Source: an uncultured SAR86 cluster bacterium (GTDB taxonomy: Bacteria; Pseudomonadota; Gammaproteobacteria; Magnimaribacterales; Magnimaribacteraceae). Taken from it: 64,000 bases of DNA. The notes beneath the pieces are model-generated. The model ran no database searches. It had not been told where the DNA came from and worked only from the letters and a program-made list of their open reading frames with translations. This document shows positions 11,390-23,441 of this stretch, one piece after another. The DNA is taken from the NCBI GenBank assembly GCA_902606175.1, contig CACLEZ010000007.1, positions 28,012 through 92,011 on the forward strand, given 5' to 3'. Numbering within the stretch: the first letter of the stretch is position 1; each line of letters opens with the position of its first letter. A program made the position numbers and the translations under genes.

Positions 11390-12154
11390 ATGTTTGATTT
11401 AACAGGAAAAACAGCAATTATTACTGGTTCATCCAAAGGAATAGGTAAATCAATTGCTATGCAGATGGCACTGCACGGTGCCAAAGTTGTCGTATCAAGT
11501 AGAAAAGCAGATGCTTGTCAGATTGTTGCTAATGAAATTAATGAAGCTTGTTCAGATTCTGAAGGTGGAGCAATAGTTATACCTTGTAACATATCGGACA
11601 AAGCAGCTTTGCAGATGCTTGTAGATGAGACGAGATTGCAACTGGGGAAAATTGATATCTTAGTTTGTAACGCAGCGTCTAATCCTTTTTTTGGTTCAAT
11701 GATGGATATTCCAGAAGATGCTTTCGATAAAGTAATGAACAACAATATTAAAAGTAATCATTTGTTATGTCAGATGGTCATACCTGAGATGACCGAGAGA
11801 AAAGATGGAAGCATAATAATTGTTTCTTCTATTGGTGGACTTAAATCTAGTACAGTCATAGGAACTTACAATATTTCAAAAGCAGCAGACATCATGCTAG
11901 TGAAAAATCTTGCTGCTGAATTTGGTCCACAAAATGTCAGAACTAATGCTATAGCTCCGGGACTATTTAAAACAGATTTTGCTAGAGCACTTTGGGAAAA
12001 TCCTGAAATTCTCAAACAATCAACAGCAACTTGTCCCCTCAGAAGGATTGGTGAACCAGACGAAATTGGAGGAGCGGCGGTTTTTCTAGCATCCGATGCC
12101 GGAACATTTGTTAATGGTCACACCCTTGTCATAGACGGCGGGTCGACAGCCTAA
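11390..12154 (+). CDS. Short-chain dehydrogenase/reductase (SDR)
   Basis: The 254-residue classical SDR has the cofactor motif TGSSKGIGKS at residues 12-21, NAAS near 93, the catalytic YNISK motif (Tyr-x-x-x-Lys) and the C-terminal FVNGHTLVIDGG. The ATG follows GGGAGAG. It opens a co-directional run in which the next gene begins 12 bp later. The overall sequence looks like dehydrogenase/reductase family 4-like SDRs acting on alcohols, ketones or acyl-CoA derivatives. No precise substrate can be assigned. TTGACT at 11344 is -35-like, without a convincing -10. Confidence 0.87.
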   Translation: MFDLTGKTAIITGSSKGIGKSIAMQMALHGAKVVVSSRKADACQIVANEINEACSDSEGGAIVIPCNISDKAALQMLVDETRLQLGKIDILVCNAASNPFFGSMMDIPEDAFDKVMNNNIKSNHLLCQMVIPEMTERKDGSIIIVSSIGGLKSSTVIGTYNISKAADIMLVKNLAAEFGPQNVRTNAIAPGLFKTDFARALWENPEILKQSTATCPLRRIGEPDEIGGAAVFLASDAGTFVNGHTLVIDGGSTA

Positions 12155-12166
12155 AAGGAGAAGAAT

Positions 12167-12985
12167 ATGAATAATGCGGTTCTTTATGAAGTAAAAGATG
12201 GTGTGGCGACAGTTACCTTAAACAGACCTGAAAGACTCAATGCTGTGAATGATGAGATCAGGGCAGGACTAAGAGAGAAATTGGATGACGCTGCGAAAGA
12301 TTCTGATGTAAAAGTGATTATTGTCACTGGTGCAGGAAGAGGTTTTTGTGCAGGAGCAGATATGGATGGACTTGCAGCTACAAGTCAAGGTGAGTCGCAA
12401 GGCTCTCAAGTCGAAGCAGAAGAACGAGAGTATGCGGCAAATGAAGTAAAGGGCTTTGATGGAGGATTTAGTTATTTTCCGACAGTCCCTAAGCCAATTA
12501 TTGCAGCTATAAATGGACCTACTGCAGGAGTAGGTTTCATTATGGCACTTTATGCAGATATAAGATTTGCTAAAGAAGGTGCTGTTTTTTCCAGTGCATT
12601 TTCTAAAAGAGGACTTATAGCTGAATGGGGTGTTGGATGGATTCTTCCTAGACTCGTAGGTATTGCTAGAGCAAATGATATTTTGTTTTCTTCAAGAAAG
12701 TTTACTGCTGAAGAGGCTGAAAATATGGGTATAGTTAATCAAACCTTTTCTGAAGATGAATTCGATAGCGAAGTTTTTAATTATGCAGCTGATCTAGCAA
12801 AAAATGTTTCCCCACGATCACTTCGAATTATGAAGCAGCAAATTTATAACGCTCAGGGAGAAACAATTCAAGAGAATCTAGATAGTTCAATGCAAGCAAT
12901 GCTTGATAGTTTTAAGTCTGAGGATTTCAAAGAAGGTGTTTCACATTTTGTAGAAAAAAGAGAAGCAAAATTTACAGGGAAATAA
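12167..12985 (+). CDS. Enoyl-CoA hydratase/isomerase family protein
   Basis: The 272-residue crotonase has oxyanion-hole segments GRGFCAGADMDG and AINGPTAGVGFIMALYADI, and the C-terminal FKEGVSHFVEKREAKF typical of the family. In the catalytic region it reads SKRGLIAEWGVGWILPRLVG, so the usual PE-x-x-x-G glutamate is absent. This subfamily includes isomerases and ring-metabolism crotonases. It sits between an SDR and an acyl-CoA synthetase, so it probably acts on the CoA ester made by the latter. Confidence 0.87.
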   Translation: MNNAVLYEVKDGVATVTLNRPERLNAVNDEIRAGLREKLDDAAKDSDVKVIIVTGAGRGFCAGADMDGLAATSQGESQGSQVEAEEREYAANEVKGFDGGFSYFPTVPKPIIAAINGPTAGVGFIMALYADIRFAKEGAVFSSAFSKRGLIAEWGVGWILPRLVGIARANDILFSSRKFTAEEAENMGIVNQTFSEDEFDSEVFNYAADLAKNVSPRSLRIMKQQIYNAQGETIQENLDSSMQAMLDSFKSEDFKEGVSHFVEKREAKFTGK

Positions 12986-12989
12986 AATC

Positions 12990-14708
12990 ATGGATATAAA
13001 GGAATTTATTAAAATAGAAGGCAGAGAAAGTTTAACTAAAGAATTTACAAAAGAAGGTTTGTTCGAACTTAAAGAAGAAACCATTAGAGGTAACAAATAT
13101 CATGTATTTGCTAACTTACCTCAAACATTAAGAGATTATTTTCAATTTCCACTAATACATGGAGAGTGGGATTTTTTGGCGTATGAGGATGAAACATACA
13201 GCTACCAAGAGGTTCTAAATACTGCTGCCGGACTAGCACATACCCTTATGGATAAATACGGTATACAAAAAGGAGATAAGGTTGCTTTTTCTATGAGAAA
13301 TTATCCAGAATGGATATACAGCTATATTGCTGTTACCTCAATCGGAGCTGTAGCAGTTCCCTTAAACTCATGGTGGCAAGGTGAGGAACTTGATTATGGT
13401 TTAACCCATAGTGAATCATCAATATTCATAGCTGATGAAGAGAGACTTCAAAGATTAGAAGGTCATGTGGAAGAGATGCCTCGTATAGCAGTGCGTTGTG
13501 ACGCAAGTAAATTTACAAATACAGCAGCTTTTGATGATGTTGTATCGCCAATGGATGCTTTTCCTGAGGTTGAAATTGATCCTGAAGATGATGCAAGTAT
13601 TATGTATACATCTGGCAGTACAGGTTATCCAAAAGGTGTAGTTTCTACTCACAGAGCAGTAGTATCTGCTCCAATTACCTGGGCGCTTATGGGTCAACTA
13701 GCTACGCAAATTGAAGTTGATGGGGAGCCTTTGCCGTCTCCAATTTCTGGTGAAAATCCTTGCACAATTGCTGCAGTACCCTTATTTCATGTAACAGGTT
13801 CTCATGCTGTCTTTTTATTGTCTTTGGTAACAGCGAGAAAGATTGTTTTTATGTATAAATGGGATGCTGTAGAAGCTTTACGTCTTATTGAAAAACATAA
13901 AGTGACTGATATGACAGGCGTACCAACTATGTCAGCAGAAGTTCTACAGGCACATAAAGATAATCCGGAAATAGACATTTCGAGCCTAAAAGGGTTAGGT
14001 TCTGGAGGAGCAGCAAGACCTCCTGAACAAATTAAAGCTCAAGAGAAAGAACATCCAGATAAAGTTGCTACCGTAGGCTATGGACTTACTGAAACTAATG
14101 CTCATGCGACGAATGCTAGTGGAATGACTTTGTATGAGAGACCAAGTACTGCTGGCTACCCTACTCCTTTTTTAAATCTCATAAAAATTATGGACGAAGA
14201 AGGTAATAAGCTGGGACCCAATGAACTTGGAGAAGTGGCGATTAAATCGACATGTAATTTTAGATGTTACCTTAAGAATGAAGAAGCGACTAATGAAGTT
14301 TTAGACAGTGAAGGTTGGTTTAGAAGTGGTGATGTAGGCATTATTGATGAAGATGGATTCCTCTATATTAAAGACAGAATCAAAGATATCGTCATAAGAG
14401 GTGGAGAAAACATAGCTTGTTTAGAGATAGAAGCTGCAATCTATGAGCATCCTTCTGTTAGAGAAGCATCCGTCTTTGGTATTCCAGATGAAAGATTAGG
14501 TGAAAAACTAGCAACAAGAATATCTCTTAATCCTGGTGCTGAACTTTCAGAAGAAGATCTTTCATCATTTTTAGCAGCAAAAATAGCTAAATTTAAGATA
14601 CCTGAATATACGTGGTTTCAAGCCGAGGAATTACCAAAAGTAGCAGCTGGAAAAATTGCAAAAAAACAAATGCGAGAAGATGCCATAAAAGAATTGGGAC
14701 TAGATTAA
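12990..14708 (+). CDS. AMP-forming acyl-CoA synthetase (ANL superfamily)
   Basis: The 572-residue adenylating enzyme has the phosphate-binding loop MYTSGSTGYPKGV near residue 206, the YGLTETNAHAT substrate/adenylate motif, and the hinge GWFRSGDVGIIDEDGFLYIKDRIKD. The C-terminal catalytic lysine lies in AAGKIAKKQMRED. It activates a carboxylic acid with ATP and CoA. The start is ATG 12990, 4 bp after the crotonase. The next SDR start overlaps its stop by one base (TAATG). The acid could be a fatty, aromatic or isoprenoid acid; the sequence does not tell. Confidence 0.92.
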   Translation: MDIKEFIKIEGRESLTKEFTKEGLFELKEETIRGNKYHVFANLPQTLRDYFQFPLIHGEWDFLAYEDETYSYQEVLNTAAGLAHTLMDKYGIQKGDKVAFSMRNYPEWIYSYIAVTSIGAVAVPLNSWWQGEELDYGLTHSESSIFIADEERLQRLEGHVEEMPRIAVRCDASKFTNTAAFDDVVSPMDAFPEVEIDPEDDASIMYTSGSTGYPKGVVSTHRAVVSAPITWALMGQLATQIEVDGEPLPSPISGENPCTIAAVPLFHVTGSHAVFLLSLVTARKIVFMYKWDAVEALRLIEKHKVTDMTGVPTMSAEVLQAHKDNPEIDISSLKGLGSGGAARPPEQIKAQEKEHPDKVATVGYGLTETNAHATNASGMTLYERPSTAGYPTPFLNLIKIMDEEGNKLGPNELGEVAIKSTCNFRCYLKNEEATNEVLDSEGWFRSGDVGIIDEDGFLYIKDRIKDIVIRGGENIACLEIEAAIYEHPSVREASVFGIPDERLGEKLATRISLNPGAELSEEDLSSFLAAKIAKFKIPEYTWFQAEELPKVAAGKIAKKQMREDAIKELGLD

Positions 14709-15490
14709 TGCAAATACAAGATAAAAGAGTTGTGGTCACAGGGGCTGCCAGCGGAATAGGCAAAGCCTTATGTGAAGCGTTTAATAAGGCAGGAGCTAAA
14801 TCAGTTGTTTGTGTTGATATGAACATTGAAGGCGCTACTGAAACTGCCAATGATATCAATGGTTTAGCGGTCCAAGCTAATGTTGGAAAAGAAGCAGACA
14901 TTATCAATGTAATAGATAAAGCAAATGAATATTCAGGTGGAATAGATATTTTTTGTTCTAATGCAGGGATTGGTGGAGTACATGGATTTTTTGAAGTAGA
15001 GACTAGCGATTGGCAAAATATCTGGGAAGTAAATGTACAATCTCATATCTTTGCAGCCAAGCATGTTCTGCCTCAAATGCTAGAGAGAGGTGAAGGATAT
15101 TTAATGAACACTTCATCTGCAGCAGGTTTACTTACTCAGATAGGTTCTGCAGGATATTCAGTAACTAAAGCAGCTGCAGTGAGTTTTGCGGAGTGGATAA
15201 AAATTACTTATGGAAATAAAGGAATTGGTGTCTCATGTCTTTGTCCTCAAGCTGTAAGAACAGCCATGACAGCTCAAGGTGCTGGAGTAGCTGGAGTTGA
15301 TGGGATGATTGAAGCTGATGAGGCAGCTGCCGATGTACTTGATGCCATTGAAAATGAAAGATTTCTTGTGACTCCTCATGCTGAGGTCTTGGAATATGTA
15401 TCTAGAAAAGGAAATGATAGAGATCGCTGGATAACTGGCATGCAAAGACTTCAAGAAAGATTTGAAGACTGGAAACCAGGAGACAGTTAG
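14708..15490 (+). CDS. Short-chain dehydrogenase/reductase (SDR)
   Basis: The ORF track begins 96 bp too early, inside the acyl-CoA synthetase. The real start is ATG 14708, overlapping the previous stop. The 260-residue protein has GAASGIGKAL, DIFCSNAGIGG (NAG motif), and Tyr-Lys in YSVTKAA. It belongs to SDRs that oxidise or reduce hydroxyl or keto groups. The C-terminus ends DRWITGMQRLQERFEDW, without the usual DGG motif. Its place after the ligase and crotonase suggests a beta-oxidation-like or side-chain-oxidation step. Confidence 0.87.
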   Translation: MQIQDKRVVVTGAASGIGKALCEAFNKAGAKSVVCVDMNIEGATETANDINGLAVQANVGKEADIINVIDKANEYSGGIDIFCSNAGIGGVHGFFEVETSDWQNIWEVNVQSHIFAAKHVLPQMLERGEGYLMNTSSAAGLLTQIGSAGYSVTKAAAVSFAEWIKITYGNKGIGVSCLCPQAVRTAMTAQGAGVAGVDGMIEADEAAADVLDAIENERFLVTPHAEVLEYVSRKGNDRDRWITGMQRLQERFEDWKPGDS

Positions 15491-15492
15491 TT

Positions 15493-16938
15493 TTGGATAT
15501 TCATCACTTACCTGCCTATGAATTGGCTAACAAAATAAAAAATAAAGAGATAAGTTCACTAGAGCTCACCCAACATTTCATAGATAGAATAGAGAAATAC
15601 GATGACAAGATAAATGCCGTTGTAGTAAGAACTTTTGAAGATGCTATAGAAGCTGCTAAAAAAGCAGACGAAGCTATTTCGAAGCAAGATTCTTTAGGTC
15701 CACTGCATGGCATACCGATGACTATAAAAGAGTCTTACAATATACAAGGACAATGCACGAGTTGGGGTATACCTGACTACAAAGGAAATATAGCCAAAGA
15801 AGATGGATTGGCTGTAAAGAGATTAAAAAAAGCGGGAGCTCATTTCTTAGGTAAAACTAATGTTCCTATGAATTTAGCTGACTTTCAAAGCTATAACGAT
15901 ATCTATGGAATTACAGGGAATCCTTGGGACCTGAAAAAGACTCCAGGAGGTTCATCAGGAGGAAGTGCTGCTGCACTCGCGGCTGGGTTTTGTTCATTGG
16001 AGGCTGGATCCGACATCGGTGGTTCCATAAGAAATCCTGCGCACTATTGCGGAGTTTTTGGACATAAGCCAAGTCACGGCATCATACCTTCATCAGGTCA
16101 TGAATTAATTCCTAATGTTCCTGAACCTGATCTATCGGTCTGTGGTCCTTTAGCTAGAAGTGCAAAAGACTTAGAAATAGCATTAGATGTAATGGTAGGC
16201 CCTATGGAAAGAAGATCTAAGGGATGGCAACTCAATCTAGCAGAATGTAATAAAACTTCTCTGAAAGATTTTAAAGTGGCTATTTGGAGTAATGATGAAT
16301 TGGCTCCAGTTTCAAAGGAAATAGCTCAAAGATGTGAAGAAGTCGGCAATAAACTAAATTCTGTTGGAACAACAGTATCCTTTGTAGCAAAACCTGAACA
16401 TGATTTCATGAAAGCTGAAATTAATTATCAATTACTTTTACAATCCGTCATGCAAAGCGGATTACCTGAAGATGAGTATCAAAAAATAGAAAAATTGGCT
16501 TCAAGTTTAGATAAAAATGATTTATCAGTAGACGCAATCTTAGCTAAAGGTACTGTGTTATCGCACAGAAATTGGATAAGACAGAACTATGCCAGAGAAC
16601 AAATCAAAATATCTTGGTCAAAGTTTTTTGAAGAATGGGATGTATTAATTTGTCCGCAGCTCGCCACAACCGCTATTGAGCACGATCACAGAAAAATCTC
16701 TGAAAGAACTGTCATGGTAGATAATCAAGAACAAAGATATTTTCAACAAATCTTCTGGCCAGGTCTTGCGGTAAATGCTCATTTACCAAGTACGGTTTTT
16801 CCAACAGGTCTATCAGGGGATGGTATGCCAATAGGTCTGCAAGTCATTGGTGGAGCTTATGAAGATAAGACAACAATTAAATTTGCTGAACTCTACGAAG
16901 AAGAATTCAAGGCCTTTGTCGTTCCTAATTTAGATTAA
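15493..16938 (+). CDS. Amidase signature (AS) family hydrolase
   Basis: The 481-residue cytoplasmic amidase shows the Ser-cisSer-Lys triad context: Lys in GIPMTIKESYN near residue 77, cis-Ser and signature GGSSGGSAAALAAG near 152-165, and nucleophile Ser in GSDIGGSIRNPAHYCG. It hydrolyses an amide (or ester) of unknown type. The start is TTG, 2 bp after the SDR. The haloalkane dehalogenase follows after 4 bp, so translation coupling and co-transcription are likely. Confidence 0.9.
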   Translation: MDIHHLPAYELANKIKNKEISSLELTQHFIDRIEKYDDKINAVVVRTFEDAIEAAKKADEAISKQDSLGPLHGIPMTIKESYNIQGQCTSWGIPDYKGNIAKEDGLAVKRLKKAGAHFLGKTNVPMNLADFQSYNDIYGITGNPWDLKKTPGGSSGGSAAALAAGFCSLEAGSDIGGSIRNPAHYCGVFGHKPSHGIIPSSGHELIPNVPEPDLSVCGPLARSAKDLEIALDVMVGPMERRSKGWQLNLAECNKTSLKDFKVAIWSNDELAPVSKEIAQRCEEVGNKLNSVGTTVSFVAKPEHDFMKAEINYQLLLQSVMQSGLPEDEYQKIEKLASSLDKNDLSVDAILAKGTVLSHRNWIRQNYAREQIKISWSKFFEEWDVLICPQLATTAIEHDHRKISERTVMVDNQEQRYFQQIFWPGLAVNAHLPSTVFPTGLSGDGMPIGLQVIGGAYEDKTTIKFAELYEEEFKAFVVPNLD

Positions 16939-16942
16939 CAAT

Positions 16943-17806
16943 ATGAAATATACAAAAAAATACAAAGATATAAAAAACGGTAAGATGGCCTTCATTGATG
17001 AAGGCAGTGGTGATACTTTTTTATTTCTACATGGCAATCCAACATCATCTTTTTTATGGAGAAATATTGCTCCCCATGTAGAAGATATTGGGAGAATAGT
17101 GATACCGGATTTAATTGGTATGGGTGATTCAGATAAACTCGAGGGAGTGGATAATCCTGGCTACAATTATCATGGTCAGTATAGTTATTTAACAGCTCTG
17201 ATGGACGAGCTAGATTTAGGAGACAATATCCATCTAATTATTCATGATTGGGGTTCCGCCATGGGTTTCCAATTTGCTAGAGAAAACCAAGATAGAATTA
17301 AGTCCATAACCTACATGGAAGCTATCGTTATGCCACTAACTTGGGATCAATGGCCCGATCCTGCAACTAAAATTTTTGGATTATTTAGGTCTGAAGCTGG
17401 AGAGGAACTTGTACTAGAAAAAAACTTTTTTGTTGAAAGAATACTTCTAGCAGATTCTTCAACTGGCTACACAGAAGAAGAAAAATCTGAGTACATAAGA
17501 CCTTTTATTAATCCAGGAGAAGACAGACGCCCTACTCTTACCTGGCCTAGACAAATTCCTCTGGATGGTGAGCCGAGCGAGGTTGTTGAAGAAGTAAGCC
17601 TTAATGCTGAATTTCATAAAGAATCGGATATTCCTAAATTGTTTATCAATGCTGATCCAGGTTCAATTCTGATTGGCGATCAGAGAGAATTTGCTAGAAG
17701 TTGGAAGAATCAGACAGAGATAACAGTGAGTGGAAATCACTTCATACAGGAAGATTCTTCAGAAGAAATAGGTGCTGCTTTAAGAAATTTCGTGGAAAGT
17801 CTTTAA
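16943..17806 (+). CDS. dhaA: Haloalkane dehalogenase, LinB/DhaA-like
   Basis: The 287-residue alpha/beta hydrolase has every catalytic residue of HLD-II enzymes: nucleophile Asp102 in HDWGSAMGF, catalytic acid Glu126 in YMEAI, catalytic His266 in GNHFIQED, and halide-stabilising Asn32 (HGNPTSS) and Trp103. These are each offset by exactly six from the LinB residues as I recall them (D108, E132, H272, N38, W109). Further shared segments are DLIGMGDSDKL, EAGEELVLEKNFFVE and RRPTLTWPRQIP. It would cleave carbon-halogen bonds of haloalkanes to alcohols. It ends a tight forward run and overlaps the next, convergent gene by 4 bp. Confidence 0.93.
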   Translation: MKYTKKYKDIKNGKMAFIDEGSGDTFLFLHGNPTSSFLWRNIAPHVEDIGRIVIPDLIGMGDSDKLEGVDNPGYNYHGQYSYLTALMDELDLGDNIHLIIHDWGSAMGFQFARENQDRIKSITYMEAIVMPLTWDQWPDPATKIFGLFRSEAGEELVLEKNFFVERILLADSSTGYTEEEKSEYIRPFINPGEDRRPTLTWPRQIPLDGEPSEVVEEVSLNAEFHKESDIPKLFINADPGSILIGDQREFARSWKNQTEITVSGNHFIQEDSSEEIGAALRNFVESL

Positions 17807-18761: not shown

Positions 18762-19625
18762 ATGGCATTTAAATTAGCCAACATATCTGGCAAAGCAGCT
18801 CTTGTAAAAGGTGAACATTATTATGATCTGAAAGTAATATCAAATGATACTTTCGATGAAGATACACTCAATGCCTTAAATCGTTTGGACGAACTGCATG
18901 AATTGAATGGTATTTTAGATGAAAAAACGCCTACTGGCTTATTAGAAGAAGCTAAAATAGATGCTCCTATTTCTTCACCAAAAAATTGTTATGCAGTAGG
19001 TTTAAATTATAGAAATCATGCCGAAGAGGCCGGTATGGAAATACCTAATGTACCTATGATATTTACTAAACACACCAGTTGCTTAGTTGGGCCGCATGCA
19101 GAGATCGAAATGAGAAGTGATCATGTTGATTATGAAGCTGAATTAGTAGCTGTCATTGGTAAGTCTGGAAAGGATATAAGTGCAGAGGATGCGTGGAATC
19201 ATGTTGCTGGATTATGTGTAGGTCAAGATATCTCTGACCGCGTAGTTCAATTTGCTGCGAAACCACCTCAATTTAATCTAGGTAAATCGTTTGATACTTT
19301 TGGACCCATGGGTCCTTATCTTGTTTCATTAGATGCCTTGGATAATAAAGAAAAACTCAAGATAGAATGTAAGGTCAATGGTGAAATAAGGCAAAATGAC
19401 AACACAAATGATCTCATATTCGATATTCCTTCTATTATTAAATATTTATCTGAGATAGTTACTCTTAATGTTGGCGATGTAATTTTTACAGGTACACCTG
19501 GAGGCGTTGGTGTCATGGAAGGTAAATTTCTAAAAGAAGGCGATGTTCTCACGACAAACATTGACGGTCTTGGTTCATTAGAAAATATATGTAAAAGAAT
19601 TACAAATCATTCGGGGGTTGAGTAA
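18762..19625 (+). CDS. Fumarylacetoacetate hydrolase (FAH) family protein
   Basis: The 287-residue protein has the FAH-domain landmarks YAVGLNYRNHAEEAG, the metal ligands around DYEAELVAVIGK, GQDISDRVVQ and the ending DVIFTGTPGGVGVMEG...GDVLTTNIDGLGSLEN. The family includes hydratases, decarboxylases and C-C hydrolases of ring-cleavage pathways and 2-oxo acids. It starts a second forward sub-run after the reversed hydrolase. AGGAGA precedes the ATG, and a TATAAT lies at 18730-18735. Confidence 0.88.
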   Translation: MAFKLANISGKAALVKGEHYYDLKVISNDTFDEDTLNALNRLDELHELNGILDEKTPTGLLEEAKIDAPISSPKNCYAVGLNYRNHAEEAGMEIPNVPMIFTKHTSCLVGPHAEIEMRSDHVDYEAELVAVIGKSGKDISAEDAWNHVAGLCVGQDISDRVVQFAAKPPQFNLGKSFDTFGPMGPYLVSLDALDNKEKLKIECKVNGEIRQNDNTNDLIFDIPSIIKYLSEIVTLNVGDVIFTGTPGGVGVMEGKFLKEGDVLTTNIDGLGSLENICKRITNHSGVE

Positions 19626-19673
19626 GACAAGCTTGCTTAGATAGAATAAATAGATAATTAAATTGGTGAAAAG

Positions 19674-20195
19674 ATGAAACTAGGATGGTCACACACAGTA
19701 CTTAATATTCAAGATAAAGAAAAAATATTAGATTTTTATATAAATACTTTGGGCTTTAAAGTTAGTGATAGTGGTCCAATCTTTGAAAATGGTCCTGAAA
19801 TTATCTTTATTAGCTATAATCCTGATGAACATCATCAATTAGCATTTGTCCTAGGTAGAGAAGATATAGGGTCTCCGACTGCTTTGAACCACATTTCATT
19901 TAGAGTTGAAACATATTCAGAATTGAAAGAGTTCAAAAAGAAATTTGATGCGATCAATCATGAATACATGCCTTTATGCCATGGAAATGCACTATCCTTT
20001 TATTTCAATGATCCTGAGAATAATGGGATGGAGATATTTTTAGATACTCCCTGGGATGTAGAACAACCCCAAGGTGAGCCCTGGAATCCGGAGTTGGACG
20101 AAAAAGATGCCTTAAAATGGGTAGAGAATACATTCAAAGATAAACCAGGTTTTGTACTTAAAGAAGAAAGTACAAAAGAGTTTGTGAATAGATAA
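19674..20195 (+). CDS. VOC-family (glyoxalase/extradiol dioxygenase-type) metalloprotein
   Basis: The 173-residue single VOC module has putative metal ligands His7 (WSHTVLNI), His in ALNHISFRV and Glu in GMEIFLDTPW, matching the H-H-E arrangement of type I extradiol dioxygenases and glyoxalases. A C-terminal extension (WNPELDEKDALKWVEN...) follows. It lies between the FAH protein and an SDR in the catabolic run, suggesting a ring-cleavage or isomerisation role. A two-domain extradiol enzyme would be larger, so activity is uncertain. Confidence 0.8.
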   Translation: MKLGWSHTVLNIQDKEKILDFYINTLGFKVSDSGPIFENGPEIIFISYNPDEHHQLAFVLGREDIGSPTALNHISFRVETYSELKEFKKKFDAINHEYMPLCHGNALSFYFNDPENNGMEIFLDTPWDVEQPQGEPWNPELDEKDALKWVENTFKDKPGFVLKEESTKEFVNR

Positions 20196-20211
20196 TTGAT
20201 GGGATTTAAAT

Positions 20212-20985
20212 ATGACTAATACAACATCCAATAAAGTAGCGATAATAACTGGCGGAAGTAGAGGCGTAGGAGCAGCTACAGCAAAATTGCTCGCTTCAAA
20301 GGGATGGAACGTGACCATAACATGTACAAGTTCTATTCAAGATGCAAATGAAGTAGTCCAAGAATGCGAGGGATTAGGAGTCGAAGCTCTATCCATAAAG
20401 GCAGATGTTTCTGAGAATGATGATTGTGTAGAAACAGTCCAACAAACGATCAAAAAATGGGGACGAATCGACGCGCTTGTAAATAATGCTGGAACAACAA
20501 AATTTGTATTTAATCATGCCGATCTCGATGGTTTAGATGCAGATGATTTTTTACATATATACAAAGTTAATGTTGTAGGACCTTTCCAGATGGTAAAGGC
20601 TTGTAAAGAAATGCTTATGAAAAGTGAGAATCCAAGTGTTGTGAATATTTCATCCATTGCCGGGATTAAAGGAATTGGTAGCTCCCTTGCCTATGCATCA
20701 TCAAAGGGTGCGTTAAATACAATGACGAAATCTATGGCCAGAAATCTCGGTCCTATTAGAGTCAATGCAATTTGCCCTGGTTTTATTCAAGGGGATTGGT
20801 TAAAAAAAGGCATGGGTGATGATCTTTATAATGCAGCAAAGGAGAATTTAACATCTAGTACTCCACTAAAACTTACTGTTACTCCTGAACAAGTTGCTGA
20901 AGGTATATATAACTTTATTGAAATATCAAAAGTAGTAACTGGTGAAACAATGCTCATGGATGGTGGACATCACCTTATTGTCTAA
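20212..20985 (+). CDS. Short-chain dehydrogenase/reductase (SDR)
   Basis: The 257-residue SDR has GGSRGVGAATA (cofactor loop), VNNAGTTKF, SSIAGIKGIGSS (catalytic Ser) and YASSKGAL (Tyr/Lys), and ends GETMLMDGGHH. It resembles 3-oxoacyl-ACP reductase-like or dihydrodiol dehydrogenase-like SDRs. It is 16 bp after the VOC gene and 18 bp before the GST gene, in one probable transcript. Confidence 0.87.
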   Translation: MTNTTSNKVAIITGGSRGVGAATAKLLASKGWNVTITCTSSIQDANEVVQECEGLGVEALSIKADVSENDDCVETVQQTIKKWGRIDALVNNAGTTKFVFNHADLDGLDADDFLHIYKVNVVGPFQMVKACKEMLMKSENPSVVNISSIAGIKGIGSSLAYASSKGALNTMTKSMARNLGPIRVNAICPGFIQGDWLKKGMGDDLYNAAKENLTSSTPLKLTVTPEQVAEGIYNFIEISKVVTGETMLMDGGHHLIV

Positions 20986-21003
20986 TATTTTGTTCTAAAA
21001 TAA

Positions 21004-21927
21004 ATGCAAAGGATGCAAGTAGGCCTTCAAGATTACCTAGTCGAACAAACCTCAGCAGAATGGACTCTTTATCATAATGATTTTTCACTCTGTTCCAGGA
21101 AAGTAAGAATTTGTCTGCACGAGGTAGGTTTCAAATATGATTCAAAGCATATAGATCTTATTGAAACAGGAAAGTATGAAGTGGCCTCAAAATCATTTTT
21201 AAAAATAAATCCAGGAGCAACAGTTCCTGTCTTGCTTAATAAAGGTAGGCCAATATACGAATCACATGAACAAATTAAATTCATATTCAATAGTAAGGAA
21301 AACTTTAATACACTTGAAGACCGTGATGTGAAATCAATAGATTATTGGACAGATAAAGCGTCGATGGTTGGTAATCCAGTAAAAGGTCATAAAAAATATG
21401 CAGGTAATACGATTGGACCCCTTACCTTTCCACTTTTTACAACTATGTTAAAAAACGTCTCCATCCTAGAAATCATGAAAGGATTAATTTCACACCCAAT
21501 GAAACAGAGAGTATTAATTTTTTTGCTCCTAAAAATATTTGGGTTTACTTTCATAAAATTGCCACCGATTCAAAATCTTATTCAATCTGCTTTTGAGGAA
21601 CTGAATAAACATTTATGCGAGTTAGAGACTGAATTGTCATCGAGTAAAAAAGAATGGCTCGCATCTGATAATTTCTCTCTCGCAGATATAAGCTGGTCAG
21701 TTATCCTTCATCGCCTTGATGAGTGTGGTTGGAGCGATCTATTATTTCAGAACAAACCATTCATTAAATCTTATTATGGAAAAATTAAAGAAAGAGATAG
21801 TTTCAAAAATGGAATAGTTGATCAAAATAATCCAAACCTTGAAAAGGGCATTAAAGATCTCAAACTTGCCATTCAAAATAATCAATTTCTTAAGTCCTTC
21901 CATGAGGAACTGAGTACCTTAAATTAG
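21004..21927 (+). CDS. Glutathione S-transferase family protein
   Basis: The 307-residue protein has an N-terminal thioredoxin-like domain (about 17-95: LYHNDFSLCSRKVRICLHEVGF, cis-Pro in GATVPVLL, then GRPIYESHEQI) and a long helical C-terminal domain containing SDNFSLADISWSVILHRL. It is longer than usual GSTs (about 200-250), with an insertion in the C-terminal half. SLCSRKVR suggests Ser or Cys catalysis, as in maleylpyruvate isomerase or reductive dehalogenase-type GSTs. Start may also be the ATG at 21013. The next gene overlaps its stop by one base. Confidence 0.83.
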   Translation: MQRMQVGLQDYLVEQTSAEWTLYHNDFSLCSRKVRICLHEVGFKYDSKHIDLIETGKYEVASKSFLKINPGATVPVLLNKGRPIYESHEQIKFIFNSKENFNTLEDRDVKSIDYWTDKASMVGNPVKGHKKYAGNTIGPLTFPLFTTMLKNVSILEIMKGLISHPMKQRVLIFLLLKIFGFTFIKLPPIQNLIQSAFEELNKHLCELETELSSSKKEWLASDNFSLADISWSVILHRLDECGWSDLLFQNKPFIKSYYGKIKERDSFKNGIVDQNNPNLEKGIKDLKLAIQNNQFLKSFHEELSTLN

Positions 21928-23441
21928 TGAATCATTTTGATGTTGCTATCATAGGTTTGGGACCTGCCGGCAGCATGGCAGCATTGCTCTTAGAATCTTA
22001 CGGAATGAAAGTTCTGTGCATCGATAGAGAAAAGGAAATTTACAATCTACCAAGAGCAGTAACTGTTAGTGATCAAGGCTTTAGAATGTGTCAATTAGCT
22101 GGAATTGATGACATTTACCTAAAAAATAGCACTATTCTTGGAGGTGCTTACTTCTCTAATAAAAATTTGGAAATTATTGGTGGTTCTATTGATTTAAAAG
22201 GTTTTGTATCAGCAAATGGTTGGCCGGCATCAAGCCTGTTTCATCAGCCCTTCACAGACCGTGATATTAGAAATAAATTAGAAAATTCAAATGTTGAAAT
22301 TATTTTAGAACATGAATTCATAAGTCTAAATCAAAATCAAGAATCTGTTAGTTTTAAAACTATCAATTTAAGGAATCAAGAAGAAAAAGAATTTACTTCT
22401 AGATATTTAATAGGTTCTGATGGTGGGTCAAGTGTTGTAAGAAAACAACTAGATATTCCTCAAGAAGACTTAAACTACAATCGTGATTGGGTCGTAATTG
22501 ATGTAGAGCTTAACAACCCAGATAAACTTGGAGATAAATTAATACAAGTTTGCGATAAGGAAAGGCTTGCAACTTTTGTTCCTTCTCACTTACCTTTTCG
22601 AAGATGGGAATTTATCATTCATGAGCATGAGGATAAGGAGAGCTTCTTAGAAGATACGATTATTCATGAACTAATAAGTAAATGGTTGAAGCCAGAAGAA
22701 TATAGAATCATAAGAAAGGCTGTTTACCAGTTCCATTCAGTAATTGCTAAGAATTTTCAAAAAGGGAACTGCTTTCTAGTAGGCGATGCTGCACATCAAG
22801 CTCCTCCTTTTATGGGAGAAGGAATGATGTCTGGTTACAGAGATGCAGTAAACTTATCCTGGAAAATCGCGACATCAATTAAAAATAAATTGAATGCAAA
22901 TTTAATAGATACCTACGAAATAGAGAGAATTCCTCACTCTAGATTTGTTGTGAAAAATTCTGCAGGTATTGGAGAATTAATGGAAGCTTATGCTGAGGCA
23001 GAAACTCCAGAACAGGTTGCACAAGATTTAGTTCAAAAGGGTTATGGATCCTTTATATTACCTAATCTAACAAAAGGTCTATTTTTCGGTGGAAAAGCAG
23101 ATGAGTCAATGAATGCTGGAGAGATTTTCCCCCAACCCGTAGAGTTTGAAAATAAAGAAATAGTAAGGAGAATGGATCATATTTTAGGAAAAGGGTTTTC
23201 TTTAATATCAAACTATCCATTTGAAATTTCTGAAGATAATCATGAATTTCTTGATTTATTAGGGTGCAAGTTAGTCACTCTTGAAAAGAAATATATTGCA
23301 GAAAATCCTTGGATGAAACCTCTATTGGAAAAGGATAGAACTTATCTTATTAGACCTGATAGGTATATTTTTGGATCAACAAATTCAAATATTTCTATTG
23401 ATATGCTTATCAATGATTTAAAAATGAGAATAATGAATTAA
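21927..23441 (+). CDS. FAD-dependent aromatic-type monooxygenase (MhpA/PcpB-like)
   Basis: The 504-residue flavoprotein starts with GTG, coupled to the GST stop (TAGTG). Class A flavin hydroxylase motifs are IIGLGPAGSMAALLLESYG (FAD ADP-binding), the DG motif LIGSDGGSSVVRKQL near 167, and the GD motif VGDAAHQAPPFMGEGMMSGYRDA near 287. It should hydroxylate an aromatic or phenolic substrate with NAD(P)H and O2. The closest family feel is 3-(3-hydroxyphenyl)propionate or chlorophenol hydroxylases. It ends the forward catabolic run. Confidence 0.88.
   Translation: MNHFDVAIIGLGPAGSMAALLLESYGMKVLCIDREKEIYNLPRAVTVSDQGFRMCQLAGIDDIYLKNSTILGGAYFSNKNLEIIGGSIDLKGFVSANGWPASSLFHQPFTDRDIRNKLENSNVEIILEHEFISLNQNQESVSFKTINLRNQEEKEFTSRYLIGSDGGSSVVRKQLDIPQEDLNYNRDWVVIDVELNNPDKLGDKLIQVCDKERLATFVPSHLPFRRWEFIIHEHEDKESFLEDTIIHELISKWLKPEEYRIIRKAVYQFHSVIAKNFQKGNCFLVGDAAHQAPPFMGEGMMSGYRDAVNLSWKIATSIKNKLNANLIDTYEIERIPHSRFVVKNSAGIGELMEAYAEAETPEQVAQDLVQKGYGSFILPNLTKGLFFGGKADESMNAGEIFPQPVEFENKEIVRRMDHILGKGFSLISNYPFEISEDNHEFLDLLGCKLVTLEKKYIAENPWMKPLLEKDRTYLIRPDRYIFGSTNSNISIDMLINDLKMRIMN

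Follow-up and report, generated by a model that had tools for sequence, protein, structure and literature searches.

Most known haloalkane dehalogenases come from culturable bacteria and from contaminated soils, and few of their natural substrates are known. SAR86 is among the most abundant groups of bacteria in the surface ocean. A preliminary description of one stretch of SAR86 DNA (64,000 nucleotides, hereafter the window) proposed that it carries a complete haloalkane dehalogenase gene with the catalytic residues of LinB. We asked whether the gene is what it appears to be, whether it belongs to the lineage, and on what its product might act.

The open reading frame is intact, running from an ATG start through 287 codons to a stop at positions 17804-17806, and is therefore complete, as had been claimed. 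When its product was laid without gaps against LinB (translated from plasmid pLB1), an offset of six residues gave 152 identities (~54%), compared to 12-20 at neighbouring offsets of 4, 5, 7, and 8, and phmmer matched residues 5-286 of the product to LinB residues 11-292 (E 7e-99). At this offset, N32, D102, W103, E126, and H266 fall on LinB N38, D108, W109, E132, and H272. The coordinates, the residues, and the constant offset of six in the preliminary description are thus all correct, and the core that it took to be collinear without indels indeed aligns gap-free. This catalytic pentad is intact in each of the SAR86 copies in our alignment (61/61), and seven further assemblies from the genus carry copies that are 97-98% identical. 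As dN/dS is ~0.03-0.04 in pairs of close relatives, indicating strong purifying selection, the open reading frame and its pentad are not a chance pattern.

Table 1. Positions within the window of the dehalogenase gene, its catalytic and cap residues, and the genes preceding it.
Feature	Position	Strand	Basis or remark
Short-chain dehydrogenase, first gene of putative operon	11390..12154	+	
Enoyl-CoA hydratase/isomerase family, putative operon	12167..12985	+	
AMP-dependent acyl-CoA ligase, putative operon	12990..14708	+	
Short-chain dehydrogenase, putative operon	14708..15490	+	Likely ATG at 14708; listed ORF opens at 14612
Amidase (Amidase signature family, PRK06170), putative operon	15493..16938	+	4 bases upstream of dehalogenase
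Haloalkane dehalogenase, HLD-II subfamily, 287 aa	16943..17806	+	ORF, alignment, profile, tree, model
N32 codon, second halide-stabilising residue (LinB N38)	17036..17038	+	LinB alignment; invariant in 61/61 aligned SAR86 copies
D102 (nucleophile) and W103 (halide-stabilising) codons (LinB D108, W109)	17246..17251	+	LinB alignment
E126 codon, catalytic acid (LinB E132)	17318..17320	+	LinB alignment
Cap stretch 168-180, LLADSSTGYTEEE in place of LinB 174-186 LPGLILRPLSEAE	17444..17482	+	LinB alignment
D171 codon (LinB L177, main tunnel mouth)	17453..17455	+	Alignment; L177 position from PMC8584953
H266 codon, catalytic base (LinB H272)	17738..17740	+	LinB alignment

Family assignment was approached through profiles, structures, and a tree. 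The protein passes the NCBIfam model for LinB-type haloalkane dehalogenases (PRK03592, 361.8 bits vs a cut-off of 241) and falls well below the cut-offs of the two other haloalkane dehalogenase models (PRK00870, 115.8 vs 265; PRK03204, 92.9 vs 466). Its top sequence matches in the PDB are AncLinB-DmbA (7pw1, 1e-111), DmbA, and LinB, with Renilla luciferase lower. HLD-II enzymes are defined by a D-H-E plus N-W pentad, HLD-I enzymes by an Asp catalytic acid with Trp-Trp, and HLD-III enzymes by an Asp acid with Asn-Trp (PMC8584953). The window protein has Asp-His-Glu with Asn-Trp, the HLD-II pentad, and neither of the other two patterns, its acid being Glu126 and its second halide residue Asn32. 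An AlphaFold model built with 20 relatives as input (mean pLDDT 77, pTM 0.83) has an alpha/beta-hydrolase core with an HLD-II type helical cap and superimposes on the LinB and DmbA crystal structures with a TM of about 0.9 over 285 columns, although the fine geometry of the cap is uncertain at a pLDDT of about 50-65. Sequence, profile, structure model, and tree agree that the window protein is a member of HLD-II near LinB, an enzyme of a known kind.

Alignment and phylogeny, proposed in the preliminary description as a check, place the protein in HLD-II among LinB, DmbA, and DhaA. In a maximum-likelihood tree built from 112 proteins of the HLD-II type, it lies in a clade made up of SAR86 proteins only (39 rows, bootstrap/SH-aLRT 100/100), drawn from two genera of the window's family (g1 and g6; working codes, with f1 for the window's family, f1-f4 for SAR86 families, and g for genera), from f2, and from part of f3. 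The other f1 genera carry the dehalogenase that is sister to this clade (support for the two together, 100/95), and a separate clade unites LinB and DmbA with two others. The SAR86-only clade adjoins LinB/DmbA within HLD-II, and in an earlier tree Renilla luciferase branches outside. The stem of the SAR86 clade is long, at 0.53 changes per column. Because a second HLD-II type in eight f3 genomes (L082-L087, L094, L095) groups with Parvibaculum and other gammaproteobacteria, HLD-II genes probably entered SAR86 more than once. We rejected the idea that the window's gene arrived recently with a mobile element, in the manner of linB on pLB1, given the synteny conserved across its genus and a sister genus and the SAR86-only clade; linB is an IS6100-flanked plasmid gene, whereas the SAR86 gene is a conserved gene of its lineage.

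How widely the gene is carried was determined across genomes, many of them incomplete, so that absences are soft. The window's own genome is 1.32 Mb and 80.7% complete, and f1 is probably the family to which Magnimaribacter belongs, to judge from genome size and a P450 gene (PMC11582366). Within f1, the gene is present in 31 of 35 genomes, including all four that are at least 90% complete, and order-wide a match at E<=1e-50 was found in 88 of 203. By family (counts tallied by hand from the match table), f2 has a match in 30 of 40 genomes, one of them interrupted by a stop, and f3 in 26, where f3 and f4 together comprise 128 genomes. For comparison, homologues above the family cut-off occur in 33/369 genomes of an even sample of Gammaproteobacteria and in 17/398 of a phylum sample. 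The dehalogenase is near-standard (near-core) in the window's SAR86 family. The interrupted f2 copy (G063:C1:427963-428523) has an internal TAA, with a match limited to residues 99-286, and is possibly a recent pseudogene. An apparent copy in the fourth family, f4 (L073, G201:C24), was set aside: over 10.2 kb, the contig that carries it shows 99.8% identity to one from g6 (L050) and was most likely misbinned in the public genome.

We next consider the surroundings of the gene. In g1 and g6, a short-chain dehydrogenase (SDR), an enoyl-CoA hydratase, an AMP ligase, a second SDR, an amidase, and the dehalogenase follow one another in that order with gaps of <=12 bases, the dehalogenase being last; there is a 4-base overlap between its stop and a convergent alpha/beta hydrolase gene. 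In two f2 genera (g8 and g10), orthologues of the SDRs and the ligase lie no more than about 5-6 kb away from the dehalogenase. In other f1 genera (L067, L068, L069, L070, L071, L098), it is preceded on the same strand, in a conserved row, by genes for an MMPL-family transporter, for an unknown protein (about 400-420 aa), and for a LolA-like protein of outer-membrane lipoprotein sorting; a TonB-dependent receptor, suspected in such lineages from gene size, was dismissed when Pfam identified the MMPL transporter and the LolA-like protein. A functional tie to a single operon was likewise rejected, as the six-gene order is confined to g1 and g6 and the gene is placed elsewhere in others. What stays constant is the enzyme, not a pathway. 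An SDR could oxidise an alcohol product, and the ligase and hydratase could process the resulting acid onward; the operon partners (amidase, acyl-CoA ligase, SDRs) point to no halogenated substrate, and the neighbourhood varies between SAR86 lineages. A search of the same genome for a type II haloacid dehalogenase partner returned a sub-threshold HAD match alone (32.3 vs 125.4 bits). Elsewhere in the window (18762-23441), FAA-hydrolase, glyoxalase/dioxygenase-like, SDR, GST-like, and FAD-dependent 3-(3-hydroxyphenyl)propionate hydroxylase-like genes stand in a row that is conserved across the genus, possibly an aromatic-compound degradation cluster beside the dehalogenase.

The cap region was said to differ from that of LinB, and it does (168-180, Table 1). 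We argue that this difference has been conserved across much divergence. The LinB L177 position is Asp in 58/58 sequences of the SAR86 clade and its sister group and in 0/57 other pentad-bearing HLD-II proteins, which have Ser, Gly, Ala, Thr, Leu, Asn, Phe, or Tyr (one gap); these are sequence counts and not independent events, and a single ancestral change accounts for them. Pro175 (LinB numbering) is also lost in these 58 SAR86 sequences, and the SAR86 clade proper fixes Y227N, L231H, E84G, G127S, and A153L (LinB numbering), where position 227 is mostly Tyr and 231 nearly always Leu or Met outside it. In LinB, L177 sits where the main p1 tunnel opens, obstructs it in part, and helps to determine specificity (PMC8584953). 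Few positions in these enzymes vary more, and a review links high variability among pocket residues to this position (PMC6100074). The change that matters for substrate range is probably the invariant Asp171, not the whole cap stretch, and the enzymes of this SAR86 clade and its sister may possess a lineage-specific tunnel variant.

We also compared the protein with characterised enzymes. With LinB (Sphingobium, HLD-II), the window protein shares the gap-free core, pentad, 54% identity, and fold, as well as W140, P144, F151, F169, W207, P208, and I211 around the pocket, but differs by L177D, P175L, D147A, F143W, and A271N, and in the core by Y227N and L231H. DmbA (Rv2579, PDB 2qvb) and AncLinB-DmbA (7pw1), the best PDB matches in both sequence and fold, share Trp at 143 with the SAR86 protein, and DmbA also has Ala in the 147-equivalent region; both have Ala at the tunnel mouth, in contrast to Asp in the SAR86 clade. 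DadB of Alcanivorax, compared through its published description, is likewise a characterised marine gammaproteobacterial HLD-II enzyme near LinB/DmbA (pentad D108, H271, E132, N37, W109), but has Ser177 and a wide tunnel (PMC3938430).

The pentad by itself is insufficient proof of dehalogenase activity, which we infer, because Renilla luciferase keeps the same five residues. This monooxygenase also shares the fold and matches the window protein well in sequence (7e-68) and in model (TMq 0.87), as would be expected of a luciferase-like oxygenase; LinB and DmbA nevertheless score closer (334 bits vs 232 for the luciferase), and Renilla luciferase lies outside the HLD-II group that holds the window protein (its reference sequence and that of HaloTag were checked against the PDB). 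As we also know of no source of coelenterazine in SAR86, such a function appears highly improbable. A degraded or misassembled gene, for which the internal stop in the f2 relative might speak, is refuted by the intact reading frame, the near-identical copies in other assemblies, and the low dN/dS, and is scarcely credible.

Alternatively, the pentad may have been retained by an enzyme whose physiological role is another hydrolysis (of an ester, lactone, or epoxide) or some other reaction, on a natural product of greater bulk; dehalogenation would then be no more than a side activity. The substrate or even the main activity of the SAR86 clade could have shifted, because its stem is long and changes are fixed at L177, Y227, L231, G127, A153, and E84, the first introducing a charge at the tunnel mouth; the amidase, acyl-CoA ligase, and SDRs next door, and the absence of a halogen-specific partner from the operon, would also suit such a role. 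However, N32 and W103 are invariant in all 61 copies, and it is not evident why an esterase should retain them. Additionally, LinB and DmbA, the closest of the characterised relatives, are genuine dehalogenases according to the literature. We consider this alternative unlikely.

Very probably, then, the gene encodes a hydrolytic HLD-II haloalkane dehalogenase (EC 3.8.1.5), a conserved SAR86 gene that was not recently acquired and whose product probably acts on natural organohalides of seawater; its catalysis, substrates, and ecological role are what we infer. By homology with LinB, a substrate would come in by the main tunnel, which runs between the cap and the core. N32 and W103 would hold the leaving halide, D102 would attack the carbon in an SN2 reaction that yields an alkyl-enzyme ester, and a water activated by H266 together with E126 would release the alcohol. 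Substrates are probably natural brominated, iodinated, or chlorinated organics in surface seawater, and the alcohol could be fed into the oxidative and beta-oxidation type metabolism of the lineage. As streamlined genomes (about 1.1-1.8 Mb) retain little that is dispensable, a near-core dehalogenase points to a natural substrate that is steadily available in seawater. More tentatively, and with considerable doubt, we suggest that the fixed tunnel-mouth Asp, together with Y227N and L231H in the core, tunes this subgroup to a specific natural marine organohalide that is polar, cationic, or larger than usual haloalkanes, for which SAR86, one of the commonest bacteria of the surface ocean, would be a routine sink.

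The preliminary description also held that few dehalogenases are described from streamlined marine lineages. In the narrow sense this stands, as no report of this gene emerged from titles, abstracts, and passages of the open-access papers that mention both SAR86 and dehalogenases, and the paper on the SAR86 isolate does not bring up dehalogenases in its main text (PMC11582366). It does not extend to marine enzymes generally, since DadB, DmmA, DpaA, and DmxA have been described; macroalgal microbiomes are also rich in dehalogenases (PMC10919026). The analysis adds a dehalogenase clade that is specific to a streamlined and abundant marine lineage, is near-core there, and has an acidic residue fixed at the mouth of its tunnel. 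The cultured isolate, Magnimaribacter HIMB1674 (PMC11582366), could make the substrate question testable.

Finally, eight gammaproteobacterial proteins (L119, L120, L126, L127, L128, L130, L131, L158) score above the PRK03592 cut-off with the nucleophile Asp replaced by Gly or Ala (H-G/A-W-G/A-S) and the halide-binding Asn by Ile, Val, or Met, the Glu and His being kept. Seven of the eight form one well supported clade; these nucleophile-less, dehalogenase-like proteins are probably misannotated and may have another function.
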